The position numbers were made by a program, and so were the translations under genes. Of a DNA stretch of 37,962 nt, positions 22,283-30,514 are shown piece by piece. Source of the stretch: Chloroflexota bacterium (lineage in GTDB: Bacteria; Chloroflexota; UBA11872; VXNJ01); the NCBI GenBank assembly GCA_030744875.1, contig JASLPR010000033.1:1-37962 (forward strand). The letters run 5' to 3'. The number at the start of each line of letters is the position of its first letter. Positions within the stretch are counted from its first letter, which is position 1. Under the pieces are notes generated by a model. It saw nothing but the letters and a program-made list of their open reading frames with translations, ran no database searches and was not told where the DNA came from.

Positions 22283-22861
22283 CTAGAGAATCCTGTACGG
22301 CCTTCTGCCTCTGGTCAACCGTTCCAGTAGAGATATCGGCCAGTAGAGCACCAGCGTTGCGCCCAGATTGACAACTACGGCCAGCGCCAAGGTGTTGGTC
22401 AGCGCTGTCAACCACAGGATCGTGAAGCCGCACGCTGCCAGGATCACCATGCTGGTTGGGTAGAACACCAGCGTCCCGGCGGCCACCGCCGCCAGTGACC
22501 AGGGCAGATTGGTGCGAAACATCCCCGCCCCGCCCAGCGTCGCTACGTAGGCCGCGAGGGTGATCGCCAGCATGTTCGTGCCGGTCGGCGTGCCGCTGAC
22601 GACGTCCAACAGGAATCCCAGCGCGAAGGCCCACAGCAGCACCCGCGAGCCGCGGGCCACGGTTGCCCAGACGGCGATGAAAATCAGCGGCAGGTCGGGG
22701 CGCATGCCGAAGACCGGAAAGTAGGGGGTGGCCGAAGTCTGCAGGATCGCCAGCGCGAAGATCGCGAAAAGCGTCAGGATCGTCCGCAGCACCGAGCCGC
22801 GATCCGGCGACGGGCGCGTGAAGCTCGGCAGCCCGCCGGTCCGCCGCAAGAGGCTAGCCAT
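22283..22861 (-). CDS. mreD: Rod shape-determining protein MreD
   Basis: MreD is an integral membrane partner of MreC in the elongasome. The 192-residue product has about five hydrophobic segments, starting with ILTLFAIFALAILQTSATPY. It keeps the family-like features of a membrane-embedded MRPDLPLIFIAVWAT segment and LLWAFALGFLLDVVSGTPTG, the FLxDxxxG-type motif seen in MreD. The ATG overlaps the mreC stop by 8 bp. Sequence conservation in MreD is low generally, so position within mreBCD strengthens the call. Confidence 0.9.
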   Translation of the reverse strand: MASLLRRTGGLPSFTRPSPDRGSVLRTILTLFAIFALAILQTSATPYFPVFGMRPDLPLIFIAVWATVARGSRVLLWAFALGFLLDVVSGTPTGTNMLAITLAAYVATLGGAGMFRTNLPWSLAAVAAGTLVFYPTSMVILAACGFTILWLTALTNTLALAVVVNLGATLVLYWPISLLERLTRGRRPYRIL

Positions 22862-23669
22862 CCTCGAAGGCTTTGATCACCTGCACGGTGTCCAGGGTGT
22901 CCGGGCGCACGAATGGCCGCACGTCGGCCTCCTTCAGCACGCTCGAGGCCAGCCGCCGTACGTTCACGATCTGCCCCACCAGGATGCCCCGCGGGAAGGT
23001 ACCGCCGAGTCCTGACGTAATCACGAACTGACCCGGCTCCACCAGGTCGGTCTCGAGGATGTTGCTCATCAATAGCGTCCCGTCGGGCTGCGCCGTCAGC
23101 ACCCCATCGGCGTCGGCGAACTCACCCTGCAACACCACGTTCACCGCGCTGCCGCTGCTGGTGATCGGCAGAATTCGTGCCGTTTCGGCGCTCACCGAAA
23201 CGATCCTCCCGGCCAGCCCGCCCCGCCACACCACCGGCATGCCCTCTTCGAGGCCACTGGAGCTACCGCGGTCGATTATCAGCAGATCCAGCAGGTTCGA
23301 GCTGTCCTTGCCGATCACCTTTGCCGCCGCCAGGTCCAGTTCCGGGTGCTCCAGCGTGTAGCCCACCGCCTCGCGCAGCGACTCGTTCTCGCGTTCCGTC
23401 GCCCGCAGCCGGGCCAATTCCGCGGTCAGTTGGTCCACCTGGGTGTCCAGGCCGGCGTTGTCCTCGCGCAATTCCGAGAACCCGCGCATATCCCCGAGCG
23501 TCCGCGTCGCGCCGGCCGAAATGTCCGCGACTAGGCCCTGCACCGGCGCCGCGATCCGCCCGATCAGGTCCTCCACCGGATGCAGCGCGCCATTGTTGTG
23601 CAGCACCGAGAAACCCAGCGACAGCATTGACAGGAAGATCAGCCAGAAGAGCGATCTTTGTGCGCGCAA
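22854..23669 (-). CDS. mreC: Rod shape-determining protein MreC
   Basis: MreC is a bitopic membrane protein that activates PBP2. The 271-residue product has a short cytoplasmic start, a transmembrane helix (about residues 8-26, LFWLIFLSMLSLGFSVL), a coiled coil (about 65-100, including LDTQVDQLTAELARLRATE) and the double beta-barrel domain with LIIDRGSSSGLEEGMPVV and VITSGLGGTFPRGILVGQIV, the strongest family motif. The start is a TTG at 23669, preceded by AGGGAA that overlaps the mreB stop. Confidence 0.93.
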   Translation of the reverse strand: MRAQRSLFWLIFLSMLSLGFSVLHNNGALHPVEDLIGRIAAPVQGLVADISAGATRTLGDMRGFSELREDNAGLDTQVDQLTAELARLRATERENESLREAVGYTLEHPELDLAAAKVIGKDSSNLLDLLIIDRGSSSGLEEGMPVVWRGGLAGRIVSVSAETARILPITSSGSAVNVVLQGEFADADGVLTAQPDGTLLMSNILETDLVEPGQFVITSGLGGTFPRGILVGQIVNVRRLASSVLKEADVRPFVRPDTLDTVQVIKAFEDG

Positions 23670-23678
23670 ACCGTTTCC

Positions 23679-24734
23679 CTAAGAGATGGGGTAGCCGCTG
23701 TCGGAGATGAAGACCTCGCGATAGGCGGATAGGTTCTGCAGGCAGGCGCCGGTGCCGCGCACCACTGCCTCCAGCGGGTTCTTGGCGGTCACCACCGGCA
23801 CGTCGGTGGCCTGTTCGAGGGCGCGGTCGAATCCGCCCAGCAGCGCCCCGCCGCCGGCCAGATACACGCCGTCCTCCATGATATCGGCCAGCAGTTCCGG
23901 CGGCGTTGCCTCCAGGGCTAGCTTCACGTTGTCGATGATTTCGTTCACGGTCCCCGAGATGGCTTCCCGAATCTCCCCGGAGCTGATCTCCATCGCCCGG
24001 GGCAGCCCGGTGTTGAGGTCGCGCCCGCGCACGAAGGCCGTCGGCTCGTTGCCGTTGGGGAAGGCTGAGCCGATCTCCATCTTGCAGGTCTCGGCGGTGC
24101 GTTCGCCGATCAGCAGGTGATGTCGCTCGCGGATGTAGTTGACGATCCGTTCGTCGATCTCGTCGCCGGCGATGCGAATCGAGTGGCTCACCACGATCCC
24201 GCCCAGCGAGATCACCGCCACCTCGGTGGTACCGCCGCCGATGTCCACGATCATGCTCCCGGCGGCTTCCTGGATCGGTTGCCCGGCGCCGATCGCCGCC
24301 GCCATCGGCTCTTCGATCAGGTACGCCTCGCGGGCGCCGGCCGATAGCGCCGCCTCATGCACGGCGCGCTTCTCGACCGCGGTCACGCCCGAGGGGATGC
24401 CCACGATCACCCGTGGCCGCGGAAAGAACGGGGTCTCCTCGTGGACCCGGTCGATGAAGTAGCGCAGCATCACCTCGACTGTTTCGAAGTCGGCGATCAC
24501 GCCATCGCGCAGCGGCCGCACGGCCACGATATTGGTCGGCGTGCGCCCGACCATCTTCTTGGCTTCGACTCCCACCGCCAGCACCCGGTTGGTGCGGGTG
24601 TTGTTGGCCACCACCGACGGTTCCGAGATCACCACACCCATATCGCGCACGTAAACCAGCGTATTGGCGGTGCCCAGGTCTATTCCCAGATCGCGGGAAA
24701 AGAGACCCATCAGCGTATTAAGGGGTCGAAACAT
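23679..24734 (-). CDS. mreB: Rod shape-determining actin homologue MreB
   Basis: MreB forms membrane-bound actin-like filaments that orient side-wall synthesis. The 351-residue protein has the phosphate-1 loop DLGIDLGTANTLVYV, VGIPSGVTAVEKRAV, YLIEEPMAAAIGAG, the phosphate-2 motif MIVDIGGGTTEVAVI, and the adenosine motif VYLAGGGALLGGFD. The frame opens further upstream at 24806, but the ATG at 24734 (MFRPLNTLMGLF) has an AGGAA Shine-Dalgarno at good spacing and gives the normal length. The short hydrophobic N-terminus may help membrane binding. It is the first gene of the shape operon; lon lies 125 bp upstream on the same strand. Confidence 0.96.
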   Translation of the reverse strand: MFRPLNTLMGLFSRDLGIDLGTANTLVYVRDMGVVISEPSVVANNTRTNRVLAVGVEAKKMVGRTPTNIVAVRPLRDGVIADFETVEVMLRYFIDRVHEETPFFPRPRVIVGIPSGVTAVEKRAVHEAALSAGAREAYLIEEPMAAAIGAGQPIQEAAGSMIVDIGGGTTEVAVISLGGIVVSHSIRIAGDEIDERIVNYIRERHHLLIGERTAETCKMEIGSAFPNGNEPTAFVRGRDLNTGLPRAMEISSGEIREAISGTVNEIIDNVKLALEATPPELLADIMEDGVYLAGGGALLGGFDRALEQATDVPVVTAKNPLEAVVRGTGACLQNLSAYREVFISDSGYPIS

Positions 24735-24796
24735 CGGGGATTCCTGTCCCGAACACAGTCCGGGCGGGTAGCAGGGAGGTACTTGGCGACTCCGGC

Positions 24797-24802
24797 AGTG
24801 TA
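24797..24802 (-). promoter_or_regulatory. Possible -10 element for mreB
   Basis: In the 125-bp gap between lon and mreB the minus strand reads TACACT at 24802-24797, which resembles a sigma70 -10 box. It is placed to start a leader of about 55-60 bases ahead of the mreB ATG. No convincing -35 box lies 16-18 bases upstream. The gap contains no clear terminator for lon, so mreB may also be read from the lon promoter. Confidence 0.3.
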
Positions 24803-24859
24803 GCACGCAAACCGTCTATTTCTGCCTGCCGAAGGGACCCGATTACAGGGATGGAGGCG

Positions 24860-27250
24860 TCATACGGCGGCTCCGCCGGTTACCAGCGCCGAGTCGACTA
24901 CTTCGCTCATGTGGGCCGCGAAGGTGAACTCCAACCCGCGCCGGGCCGAGTCCGGAACGTCGTGCAGATCGCGCTCGTTGCCGGCCGGCAGCACAAAGCG
25001 CCTGATCCCGGCCCGATGCGCCGCCAGCACCTTCTCCTTCACCCCGCGGGTTCGCAGCACCCGGCCCTGCAGCGTGATCTCGCCGCTCATCGCGGTATCG
25101 CGGCGCACCGGCCGCCCGGTGATCGCCGAAACCATCGCCGTCGCCACCGTGATCCCGGCCGTCGCCCCCTCCTTGGGCACCGCCCCGCCCGGGATGTGCA
25201 CGTGGAAATCCAGCCCGTCGAAGTTGGTTGAGCCGATGCCCAGCCGCTCGGCGTCCGCCCGGCAGTAGGTCCGCGCTGTCCGCGCCGACTCCTTCATCAC
25301 ATCGCCCAGCCGCCCGGTCAGGGTCAGCCGGCCGCTGCCGTCGACCATCGAGACCTCCACCGGCATCAGTTCGCCGCCGTAGCGCGTCCAGAAGGCCCCG
25401 GTGGCCGTGGCCACCTGGTCTTCTTCGGCGATTTCGCCGTGGCGGTAGCGCTTCTGGCCCAGGTATTTGTGCAGATTGCCGGCGGTGACGTGCAGCGATT
25501 TCGCCTTGCCCTCGACCTTCAGGTAGGCGGCCCGACGGCAGATATTGGCCAGTTGCCGCTCCAGTTCGCGCACCCCCGCCTCGCGGGTGTACGAGCGCAC
25601 AACCGCCCGGTAGGCACCCTCGGTCAGCGTCACGTGCTCCGATTCGAGGCCGTGCTGCTCGTTCTGCTCGGGCATCAGGAAGCGCCGCGCGATCTCCAGC
25701 TTCTCGTCGTCAGTGTAGCCGGCGATTTCGATGACCTCCATCCGGTCTACCAGCGCCGCCGGCAGGTTGGTCAGCGTGTTGGCGGTAGCGATAAACAGGG
25801 TCCGCGAAAGGTTGAAGGGAATCTCTATGTAGTGGTCCGAGAAGGCGTGGTTCTGCTCTGGGTCCAGCACCTCCAGCAGCGCCGTGGTCGGGTCGCCGCG
25901 GAAATCCAGTCCCAGCTTGTCGATCTCATCCAGCATGAACACCGGGTTCACGGTGCCGGTGCGGCGCATCGTCTGGATGATCCTTCCCGGCAGTGAGCCG
26001 ATGTAGGTCCGCCGGTGCCCGCGGATTTCCGCTTCGTCACGTACGCCGCCCAGCGAAATGCGCTCGAACCGGCGCCCCATCGCCTCGGCGATCGCCTTGC
26101 CCAGGCTGGTCTTGCCCACGCCCGGCGGTCCGACGAAGCAAAGGATCGGGCTGCGCATCCGCCGCGCCAGCTTGCGCACCGCCAGGTACTCCAGGATGCG
26201 GTCCTTGGCCTTCTCCAGCCCGAAATGACTTTCCCCGAGCACGACCTCCGCGTCCTTGATCGAGAGCCGGTCGCGGGTGCGCTTGTACCAGGGCACCTCC
26301 AGCAGCCACTCGACGTAGTTGCGGATCACGTTGATCTCCGGCGAGCCCATCGGCATCGAGTTGAGCCGTCCCAGTTCGCGCTCGATTCGCTCCTGCACGT
26401 ACTCCGGGTAGCGCCTCGCCTCCAGGACCTCCTGGAACTCCTGGATATCGCGGGTCGCGGCGTCCGAATCGCCCAGCTCCTCGGTGATCGCCTGCATCTG
26501 CTCGCGCAGGATAAAGTCGTGCTGGGCCGACTCGATCTGCCCGTCGATCTCTTCCTCGAGGCTGTGCTGGCGTTCCAGGATCTCGATCTCGTCCGAGAGC
26601 AGCGAATGGAGCCTTCCCAGGCGCACCACCGTCTGCTCAATCTCCAGCAACTCCTGTATCCGCACGAACGGCACCGGCAGCCCGTTGGCCACCGTATCCG
26701 CCAGCACCCCCGGGTTCTCGGCGTTCATCGCCCGCACGTAGACGTCGTGGGCGATGGCGTCGCTGAGATCCACCACCCGTTGGAACAGCTGCAACACATC
26801 CGCCGCCAGGTCCTTGGCTTCCTTCGAGGTGTCCTCGAAATCGGACAGCGGCCTTCCCCGGCCCACAATGAACGGCTGCTCCTGCAGGATCTCGTCCACC
26901 ATCACCCGCCGCAGGCCTTCCACCAGCACGCTGGTGGTGCCGTCGGGCAGCTTCAGCATGCGGTCCAGGTTGGCCAGTGTGCCGACTGTGTAGAGATCGT
27001 CGGCGGTCACATCCTCTTTTTCCGGATCCTGCTGGGCGAGCACGATCATGCGGCGGTTGCCGGCCAGGGCCGACTCGATGGCCGCCACCGACCCGGGGCG
27101 CGCCACCAGCAGCGGGGTCATCACCTCCGGTACCGGGAACAACACGGTCGCGCGGACCGGCAGCACCGGCAGGATCTCGGCGTCGCCGGCTGGCAGGGCT
27201 TCGGCGACGGCGTCGGTTTCGGGGGCGTCAGGGGTCTCTGCGTCGGTCAA
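24860..27250 (-). CDS. lon: ATP-dependent protease Lon (LonA) with Thr at the catalytic Ser position
   Basis: LonA is a hexameric cytoplasmic AAA+ protease for damaged and regulatory proteins. The 796-residue product has the usual order: LON substrate-binding domain (about 27-220), helical/coiled-coil region, AAA+ module with Walker [10 protein letters not shown] (374-382) and Walker [11 protein letters not shown], then the protease domain. In the protease motif, where Escherichia coli has PKDGPSAG with nucleophile Ser679, this protein reads PKEGATAG; the codon at 25162-25160 is ACG, so the residue is Thr697. The general-base Lys is present as Lys740 in VKEKVLAAH, at the same 43-residue spacing. 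The preceding PIGG is changed to RTRG. The rest of the domain ([20 protein letters not shown]) is normal. The start is a TTG with GAGG seven bases upstream. It could be an active Thr-Lys protease or an ATP-driven unfoldase with weak proteolysis. Confidence 0.95.
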
Positions 27251-28578: not shown

Positions 28579-29034
28579 ATGACCGAACAAAGCCTCGCAA
28601 CGGCCCCGCGTCGCGGAGTCTCGCGCCGCCTGCTGGTGCTGGGCCTGGTCATGGTCGTCGCCGTCGCCTACCTGATTTATGCCGCCACCCAGGACGCCTC
28701 GGTCTACTACTACACCGTCGGCGAGGTGCTCGGCGATTCCAGCGCCGTCGAAGGGCGCAGCATCCGCGTGCAGGGCACCGTGGCCGATGGATCGATTTTG
28801 CAGGACGAGACCCGCCTCTGGATCAACTTCGATCTGACCGACGGCGTGCAGCGCATCCCGGTCGTCTATGAAAGCACCCCGCCCGACCTGCTCGGCTATT
28901 CCACCGAAGACCGCTACCAGGACGTAATCGTCGAAGGCAGCCTGGACGCCGAAGGCATCCTGCAGGCGCGCCACCTGCTGGTGCAGCACGGGGCGGACTT
29001 CGAGTCGGTGGATTCGTTCGCCGACGGGGACTGA
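28579..29034 (+). CDS. ccmE: Cytochrome c maturation heme chaperone CcmE
   Basis: CcmE receives heme from the CcmABCD exporter, holds it covalently and passes it to the CcmFH ligase on the outer face of the membrane. The 151-residue protein has one N-terminal transmembrane helix (about residues 17-36) and an OB-fold domain with YYYTVGEVLG and VQGTVADGS. The heme-binding His is His137 in LLVQHGADF. The family motif is His-x-x-x-Tyr; here the fourth residue after His is Phe141, so the conserved Tyr is absent. It is followed after seven bases by the ccmAB fusion. A separate promoter may lie just upstream. Confidence 0.92.
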   Translation: MTEQSLATAPRRGVSRRLLVLGLVMVVAVAYLIYAATQDASVYYYTVGEVLGDSSAVEGRSIRVQGTVADGSILQDETRLWINFDLTDGVQRIPVVYESTPPDLLGYSTEDRYQDVIVEGSLDAEGILQARHLLVQHGADFESVDSFADGD

Positions 29035-29041
29035 GCGGGGA

Positions 29042-30514
29042 GTGGCGGTGGCGGAGTCCGCGGGGGCGGGCGTCGTGACCAGGCCCATCGTCCGGGTAAA
29101 CGGGTTGCGCCGCCGCCTCGGCGCAACCGAGGCGCTGGCCGGCATCTCGTTTGAGTTGCGGCGCGGCGAGATCGTCGTTCTGCTCGGTGACAACGGCGCC
29201 GGCAAGACCACCCTGCTACGTGCCATGAGCGGCCTGCTGCGGCCCGGTTCCGGTGTAGTGCTCACCGCCGGCCGGCCGGTCACCCACAGCGACCCGGTCT
29301 CGCGGGCCGGCGTCGCGTACGTCGGCCACCGGGTCAGCAGCTACGACGAACTGACCGTGCTCGAAAACGTGCGCTTCGCGGCGACGCTCAACGGAATCGG
29401 CCCGGCTGACGCCCGGATCAAGTCCGCCCTGCGGGGCGTGGAGCTGTGGCGGTTCCGCTCGCGGCGCGCCCGGGAGCTGTCCCGGGGGATGCGCCAGCGC
29501 CTCGAGTTGGCGCTGGCCCTGGCCACCGACCCGGCAGTCATTCTGCTGGACGAGCCCTACAACGCGCTGGACGGCAGGTCTCGGGAGGCGGTCGATGCGC
29601 TGCTCCTGGAGCGCAAGGCCAACGCGGTCCTCCTGATCGCCACCCACGACACCGATCACGCCGAGCGCCTGGCCGATCGGGTCCTGCTGCTGCAGCGCGG
29701 CCGGTTGCTTCTGGACGCCCGCCTGGACGAGCCCGGCCGGCCGCCGCTGCGCGAGATGATCGCCAATGCGGTCGCCGCCAAGACCCCGATTCCCGAGGAA
29801 TCAACCCAACCGCCGCCGATGGACAGCTTGGCCCGCCACCGGCCGGGCCCGCTGGCCGCCTGGCGCACGCTGGTGGCCCGCGAATTCCGCGCCGAGTTGC
29901 GCAGCCGCGAATTCATCCCGGCGATGGTCGTGCTCGGCGTACTGATGCTGATGGGCTTCAGCATGGCGTTCATCATCCCCCCCGAAGACGCCGCCGCGGT
30001 GGCCAGCGGTTCGTTCTGGGCCAGCCTGATCTTTGCCACCATCCTGGGCGCGGTCCGTGGCTTTGCGGTCGAACACGACCGCGGCACATTGCAGATGCAA
30101 CTGCTCGCTCCGATCAGCCGCGCGGCCGTCTTCGGCGGCAAATGGGTGGTCAACTTCGTTTCCATCGGGTTGGTCGGCCTGATCGTCGCGGCGGTGACCT
30201 CGGGCTTCTTCCGGGTCCCCTTCGCCGGGCTCGGCATGGTCGCCATCGTGCTCGTCGCCGCCACCGCCCTAGCCACCGTCGCCACCCTCTACGGCGCGCT
30301 GCTCACCAACACCCGCGCCCGCGAGCTGCTGGCCCCGGTGCTGATGTTGCCGGTGATCCTACCGATCATGATCGGCGGCGTCGCCGTCAGCCTGGATACG
30401 CTTGCCGTCACCGCCGATTCCGGCGATCCGCCGTGGCTGGGGTTGGTGCTGGCCTACTGTGCGATTCTGCTAAGTTTGTCGATGCTATTGGTCGATTTCA
30501 TCTTTGAGGACTGA
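29042..30514 (+). CDS. ccmAB: CcmA-CcmB fusion: heme-handling ABC transporter ATPase plus permease
   Basis: One uninterrupted frame of 490 residues joins two normally separate subunits. Residues 15-230 are the CcmA ATPase: Walker A GDNGAGKTT (49-57), signature LSRGMRQRL (146-154), Walker B VILLDEP (166-172) and switch His202. A Pro-rich linker (about 235-265) leads to CcmB: AAWRTLVAREFRAELRSREF, then six hydrophobic segments including FWASLIFATILGAVRGFAVE and the EHDRGTLQMQLLAPISR region. CcmAB with CcmC and CcmD uses ATP to release holo-CcmE. A Met at 260 (ATG 29819) could start CcmB separately but has no Shine-Dalgarno at usual spacing, so a true fusion is preferred. The start is a GTG at 29042. 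Confidence 0.92.
   Translation: MAVAESAGAGVVTRPIVRVNGLRRRLGATEALAGISFELRRGEIVVLLGDNGAGKTTLLRAMSGLLRPGSGVVLTAGRPVTHSDPVSRAGVAYVGHRVSSYDELTVLENVRFAATLNGIGPADARIKSALRGVELWRFRSRRARELSRGMRQRLELALALATDPAVILLDEPYNALDGRSREAVDALLLERKANAVLLIATHDTDHAERLADRVLLLQRGRLLLDARLDEPGRPPLREMIANAVAAKTPIPEESTQPPPMDSLARHRPGPLAAWRTLVAREFRAELRSREFIPAMVVLGVLMLMGFSMAFIIPPEDAAAVASGSFWASLIFATILGAVRGFAVEHDRGTLQMQLLAPISRAAVFGGKWVVNFVSIGLVGLIVAAVTSGFFRVPFAGLGMVAIVLVAATALATVATLYGALLTNTRARELLAPVLMLPVILPIMIGGVAVSLDTLAVTADSGDPPWLGLVLAYCAILLSLSMLLVDFIFED

Follow-up and report, generated by a model that had tools for sequence, protein, structure and literature searches.

The window, by which we mean the whole 37,962-nucleotide stretch of Chloroflexota DNA that was analyzed, contained a gene for a LonA-type protein in which Thr stood in the place of the catalytic Ser. 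We propose that this protein, here called Lon2, is a LonA paralog whose peptidase is being downgraded and that, in this genome, it most likely serves as an ATP-driven unfoldase; we put the chances of this proposal at about even. The proposal was favored because the nucleophile had been exchanged on two occasions, the catalytic loops had been loosened, and both the ATPase and a second Lon protein were intact.

Features of the lon2 gene product

The lon2 ORF (24860..27250, minus strand) ran uninterrupted from a TTG start and encoded 796 amino acids. The product was of full length for the LonA type, carrying the N-domain, AAA+, lid, and protease domains in a single chain (Pfam domains LON_substr_bdg, AAA, Lon_lid, and Lon_C), and it scored 841.7 bits against the NCBIfam lon model TIGR00763 (cut-off, 608). 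The Walker A (GPPGVGKT) and Walker B (VFMLDEIDK) motifs were intact. The marks of LonB and LonC (an Asp before the Ser, a membrane anchor in the case of LonB, and a lack of AAA+ motifs in the case of LonC) were absent from Lon2; the residue before Thr697 was Ala, and LonB models scored far below their cut-off. Thus, Lon2 resembled LonA (endopeptidase La; MEROPS S16, TIGR00763) in domain order, length, AAA+ motifs, the equivalent of Lys722, the 43-residue spacing of the dyad, and a score above the equivalog cut-off, but it differed from LonA in having Thr for the Ser nucleophile of PKDGPSAG, Ala for the Pro directly before it, RTRG for PIGG, and Ser for Thr704.

The gene did not appear to be decaying because the frame was uninterrupted and the protein showed no deviation at any of the 110 columns at which all the other Lon sequences in the comparison agreed. 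Purifying selection on the Lon2 protease domain in a sister genus, which is described below, also spoke against decay, and we ruled it out.

Catalytic residues and their surroundings

Lon2 was aligned with E. coli MG1655 Lon, for which the identities of Ser679 and Lys722 were confirmed from the gene sequence. In this alignment, the active-site motif of Lon2 read PKEGATAG instead of PKDGPSAG. Thr697 (codon ACG, 25160..25162, minus strand) corresponded to the nucleophile Ser679, and Lys740 (codon AAG, 25031..25033, minus strand) corresponded to the general base Lys722, which was kept in all Lon2 proteins; the spacing between the two was 43 residues, as it is between Ser679 and Lys722. These results bore out what the first-pass annotation of this DNA had claimed about the exchange and the spacing of the Lys, as did the Walker motifs and the clean frame in the case of its claims that the ATPase was intact and that the gene was not decaying.

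Ala696 (codon GCG, 25163..25165, minus strand) corresponded to Pro678, the Pro before the nucleophile that is a defining feature of LonA (PMC9569914). This Pro was lost throughout the Lon2 proteins of the window family, in which the residue before the nucleophile was Ala or Ser. Ser722 (codon AGC, 25085..25087, minus strand) corresponded to Thr704, which was Thr in all Lon1 proteins and in the Lon proteins of the class. The RTRG segment (25043..25054, minus strand) corresponded to PIGG at positions 715-718. The change from PIGG to RTRG had been noted together with the Thr exchange in the first-pass annotation; the change was present, but it was not specific to the Thr protein because an R/K-T-x-G/D segment was common to the Lon2 proteins of the whole family. 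Same-family Lon2 proteins with Ser carried it too, so a coupling of RTRG to Thr was ruled out.

Published work bears on both substituted positions. In E. coli Lon, an S679A substitution abolished proteolysis (PMC5512693). In human LONP1, a P854A substitution, which is equivalent to P678, severely impaired proteolysis and hardly affected ATP hydrolysis (PMC8163871). Both results favor a downgraded peptidase. On the other hand, main-chain angles have been used to argue that catalysis probably depends little on which residue precedes the nucleophile (PMC9569914), which counts against a downgraded peptidase. Of 13 active-site-loop columns that did not vary among E. coli and the class, 5 (P678, S679, A680, T704, and G718) were changed in the Lon2 proteins of the order and 0 were changed in its Lon1 proteins, which also favors the proposal. 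Against it, the loops were not significantly enriched in changes relative to the remaining part of the Lon2 protease domain (Fisher P = 1.0) or relative to the whole protein (P = 0.18).

In the mechanism that we propose, the peptidase center of lon2, an old LonA paralog located upstream of mreBC, would have been relaxed and the ATPase would not. The Ser-to-Thr exchange would have occurred in an active-site loop from which, judging by the whole family, the Pro ahead of the nucleophile and the PIGG turn ahead of the Lys had already disappeared. With an extra methyl group in an altered loop, peptide cleavage would most likely be absent or very slow. The Lon2 hexamer would act as a chaperone or unfoldase that still binds, unfolds, and releases substrates using ATP, and Lon1 would take care of bulk degradation.

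The first-pass annotation had named an unfoldase or a Thr nucleophile as the two possible outcomes; a working Thr-Lys dyad seems unlikely to us. In such a dyad, Lys740 would serve as the base for a Thr697 nucleophile, the extra methyl group would be accommodated by the change of Thr704 to Ser in the same pocket, and Lon2 would be a slower or more selective protease. The retention of Lys740, Glu724, His683, and His685 is consistent with such a dyad, as is the lack of deviation at the 110 invariant columns. Thr704 is close to Lys722 in Lon structures, and its replacement by Ser is the reverse of the exchange at the nucleophile. The proteasome, in which a Thr is the nucleophile, offers a precedent, but the proteasome Thr relies on its own N-terminal amine and not on a distant Lys. 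Moreover, the Thr704-to-Ser change was also found in another genome (G004), in which Ser679 was retained and the Ser codon was TCC rather than AGC. The two cases are most simply read as independent changes, which makes it less plausible that Thr697 requires, or regularly goes together with, Ser at position 704.

Nucleophile exchanges among relatives

We compared 24 genomes of the order, among which the window genome was the only member of its genus. In Lon1, PKDGPSAG was present in 20 of the 20 sequences from the order that covered the site, and Lon proteins of the class from outside the order had Ser in all cases that covered it. In Lon2, Thr was found only in the window genome (G000), which is one genome of its genus; four other genomes of the window family had Ser (codon TCC), and Ser was also found in genus g6. 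Thus, Thr was not fixed in a clade, a point that the first-pass annotation had proposed to check. That annotation had also held that relatives with Ser would point to an error in a single genome, and this applied in part, given the four same-family Ser proteins and a genus represented by one genome.

We considered it improbable that the Thr codon was a one-base assembly error or a private mutation of the strain and that the population really carries Ser (TCG). The Thr codon comes from a single genome, assembled into 97 contigs; only one base separates TCG from ACG; same-family relatives have Ser; and in a screen of about 100,000 genomes, it would not be surprising to meet an error of this kind once. 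However, the Ser codons of the same-family relatives were TCC, so TCG has to be assumed as well, the frame surrounding the codon was clean, and the same site was independently altered in six species of another genus.

This second alteration was found in the sister genus g5, in which Lon2 carried PKEGPASG in 6 of 6 species. Ala was present at the position of the nucleophile and Ser was present one residue later. The codons for this Ser680 varied synonymously among TCA, TCC, and TCG (L026-L031); six species with synonymous variation around the Ala-Ser state indicate that it is not an error. In g5, the protease domain had a dN/dS ratio of 0.081, and that of the AAA+ domain was 0.067. The closeness of the two values indicates that purifying selection still maintains a protease domain that carries Ala679. 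In g5, either the nucleophile would have moved by one residue or the protease would be dead. The wider pattern, including the Ala-Ser state in g5, is a firmer part of our findings than the Thr of a single assembly.

Two exchanges in one paralog of one order (Thr in G000 and Ala in 6 of 6 g5 species) argue for downgrading, and there was no change of the nucleophile in Lon1, in the class, or, given the motif used, in the rest of a 400-genome phylum sample. Several observations pull the other way. The equivalents of Lys722, Glu706, His665, and His667 were kept in all Lon2 proteins, g5 included, and a dead center in g5 might have lost the Lys; the Ser one residue later in g5 gives the impression that the nucleophile was moved and not simply lost; a Ser-to-Thr exchange is the mildest change possible; and the Thr is known from one genome. 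Because the Lys was retained, the exchange was mild, and the Ser was shifted in g5, catalysis may have been altered in Lon2 rather than lost.

In a motif scan that held the flanking residues constant, 7 of 400 phylum genomes had Thr or Ala at the nucleophile position; these were exactly the window genome and the six g5 genomes, and there was no such match outside the order. By this measure, the exchange exceeded background. The same motif with a WSN nucleophile codon, which covers Ser and also Thr and some others, had matches in 321 of the 400 genomes. A scan of 84,980 species genomes for the Thr motif, whose sensitivity was about 60-65% per Lon gene (fetched sets) and about 80% per genome (phylum sample) and which may not show the window genome itself or its near kin, yielded no Thr-Lon. 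The sole match, in a member of the Vicinamibacterales (L050), was read and was not in a Lon gene. The Thr motif had no match in a scan of viral contigs, and we found no literature report of a Ser-to-Thr exchange or a Thr nucleophile in Lon. The species-wide scan and the literature result also count against a working Thr-Lys dyad.

Lon1 and Lon2 as paralogs

The window genome (97 contigs, 2.3 Mb) contained three Lon-type genes. The search for a second lon that had been recommended was positive: Lon1, which was encoded on a separate contig, was canonical, with PKDGPSAG, the catalytic Lys, and AIGG where PIGG stands. Lon1 and Lon2 were about 45% identical, and they co-occurred across the order. 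In a quick-model tree built without the active-site columns, the Lon2 proteins of the order grouped separately from Lon1 in a single starred clade (22 rows), and class-level relatives grouped with both Lon1 and Lon2. Lon2 is an old LonA paralog. The branching order inside the family was not resolved by the quick-model tree, so the Thr exchange could not be dated.

The co-occurrence of the paralogs bears on another explanation, namely that Lon2 is a regulatory subunit in mixed Lon1-Lon2 hexamers, in which it would supply ATPase power or substrate choice and Lon1 would supply the active sites. Loop contacts between neighboring protease domains control Lon activation (PMC8163871), and a Lon2 neighbor could tune Lon1 in this way. 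However, the identity of the two proteins is only about 45%, and their genes are on different contigs; we regarded this explanation as very improbable.

The lon2-mreB-mreC neighborhood

The gene directly downstream of lon2 was mreB (23679..24806, minus strand), which was followed by mreC (22854..23669, minus strand). In the order, mreB directly followed lon2 in 22 of the 22 other Lon2 loci, and a recognizable mreC usually came next; the row of lon2, mreB, and mreC, located at 22854-27250 (minus strand) in the window, was conserved through the order. The lon2-mreB arrangement was not present in the class relatives examined. Gene position suggests a possible link between Lon2 and cell-shape control. 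It is a tentative idea, and one that we hold with less confidence than the downgrading proposal itself, that Lon2 is a natural ATP-powered Lon unfoldase tied to the MreB cell-shape system, with a nucleophile that was exchanged at least two times and a hexameric machine that was kept by selection. The constant lon2-mreB neighborhood, the Ala-Ser state in g5, the lost LonA-defining Pro, and the Thr704-to-Ser change beside the dyad went beyond the first-pass annotation.

Elsewhere in the window, at 28579-30514 (plus strand), a gene for CcmE was followed by a single ORF that fused a CcmA-like ABC ATPase with a CcmB domain.

Comparison with known Lon-type proteins

Lon2 is reminiscent of the engineered "trap" mutants of Lon (such as C. 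crescentus S674A and E. coli S679A), in which the nucleophile is altered and the rest of the machine is intact. Unlike these mutants, Lon2 is natural, has Thr rather than Ala, and occurs alongside an intact Lon; the g5 protein is a natural Ala variant. RadA contains a Lon-type, hexamer-forming P domain that lacks the Ser-Lys dyad and is a scaffold for a motor, and BrxL has a Lon-type domain that was matched by sequence. However, RadA and BrxL have other motors, whereas Lon2 keeps the full LonA architecture and the Lys. LonC of Meiothermus taiwanensis is a Lon-type protein that lost half of its machine, but the missing half is the ATPase, and proteolysis was retained (PMC3391209); Lon2 would be the opposite case. 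Two Lon paralogs with different roles in one bacterium are represented by Lon-1 and Lon-2 of Borrelia (PMC2777506).

The nonproteolytic, chaperone-like work of Lon is known mostly from mutants and from mitochondria. In line with an unfoldase, yeast Lon that lacks proteolytic activity is reported to promote the assembly of complexes (Rep 1996, as cited in PMC8163871). If our proposal is correct, a natural Lon with an altered nucleophile and an intact ATPase, present next to a normal Lon, would allow unfolding to be studied separately from cleavage. If the Thr does cut, Lon2 would show that the Lon fold can work with a Thr-Lys dyad, for which we found no report.

The third Lon-type gene of the window genome, lon3, was about 580 codons long; its product had no N-domain in the Pfam scan and had lost the Walker B acidic residues and the nucleophile. 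Lon3 was present in most genomes of the order (L003, 1498-3228, minus strand, with the same gene in L016 and L082, and contig C11 in the case of the window genome itself). In the window family, Walker B lacked its acidic residues and the dyad was lost differently in each lineage, being Ala/Lys, Val/Arg, Ser without Lys, or Thr/Arg. In most members of the sister family, a Ser and a Lys remained. The lon3 gene of the window genome adjoined a TatB-like gene.
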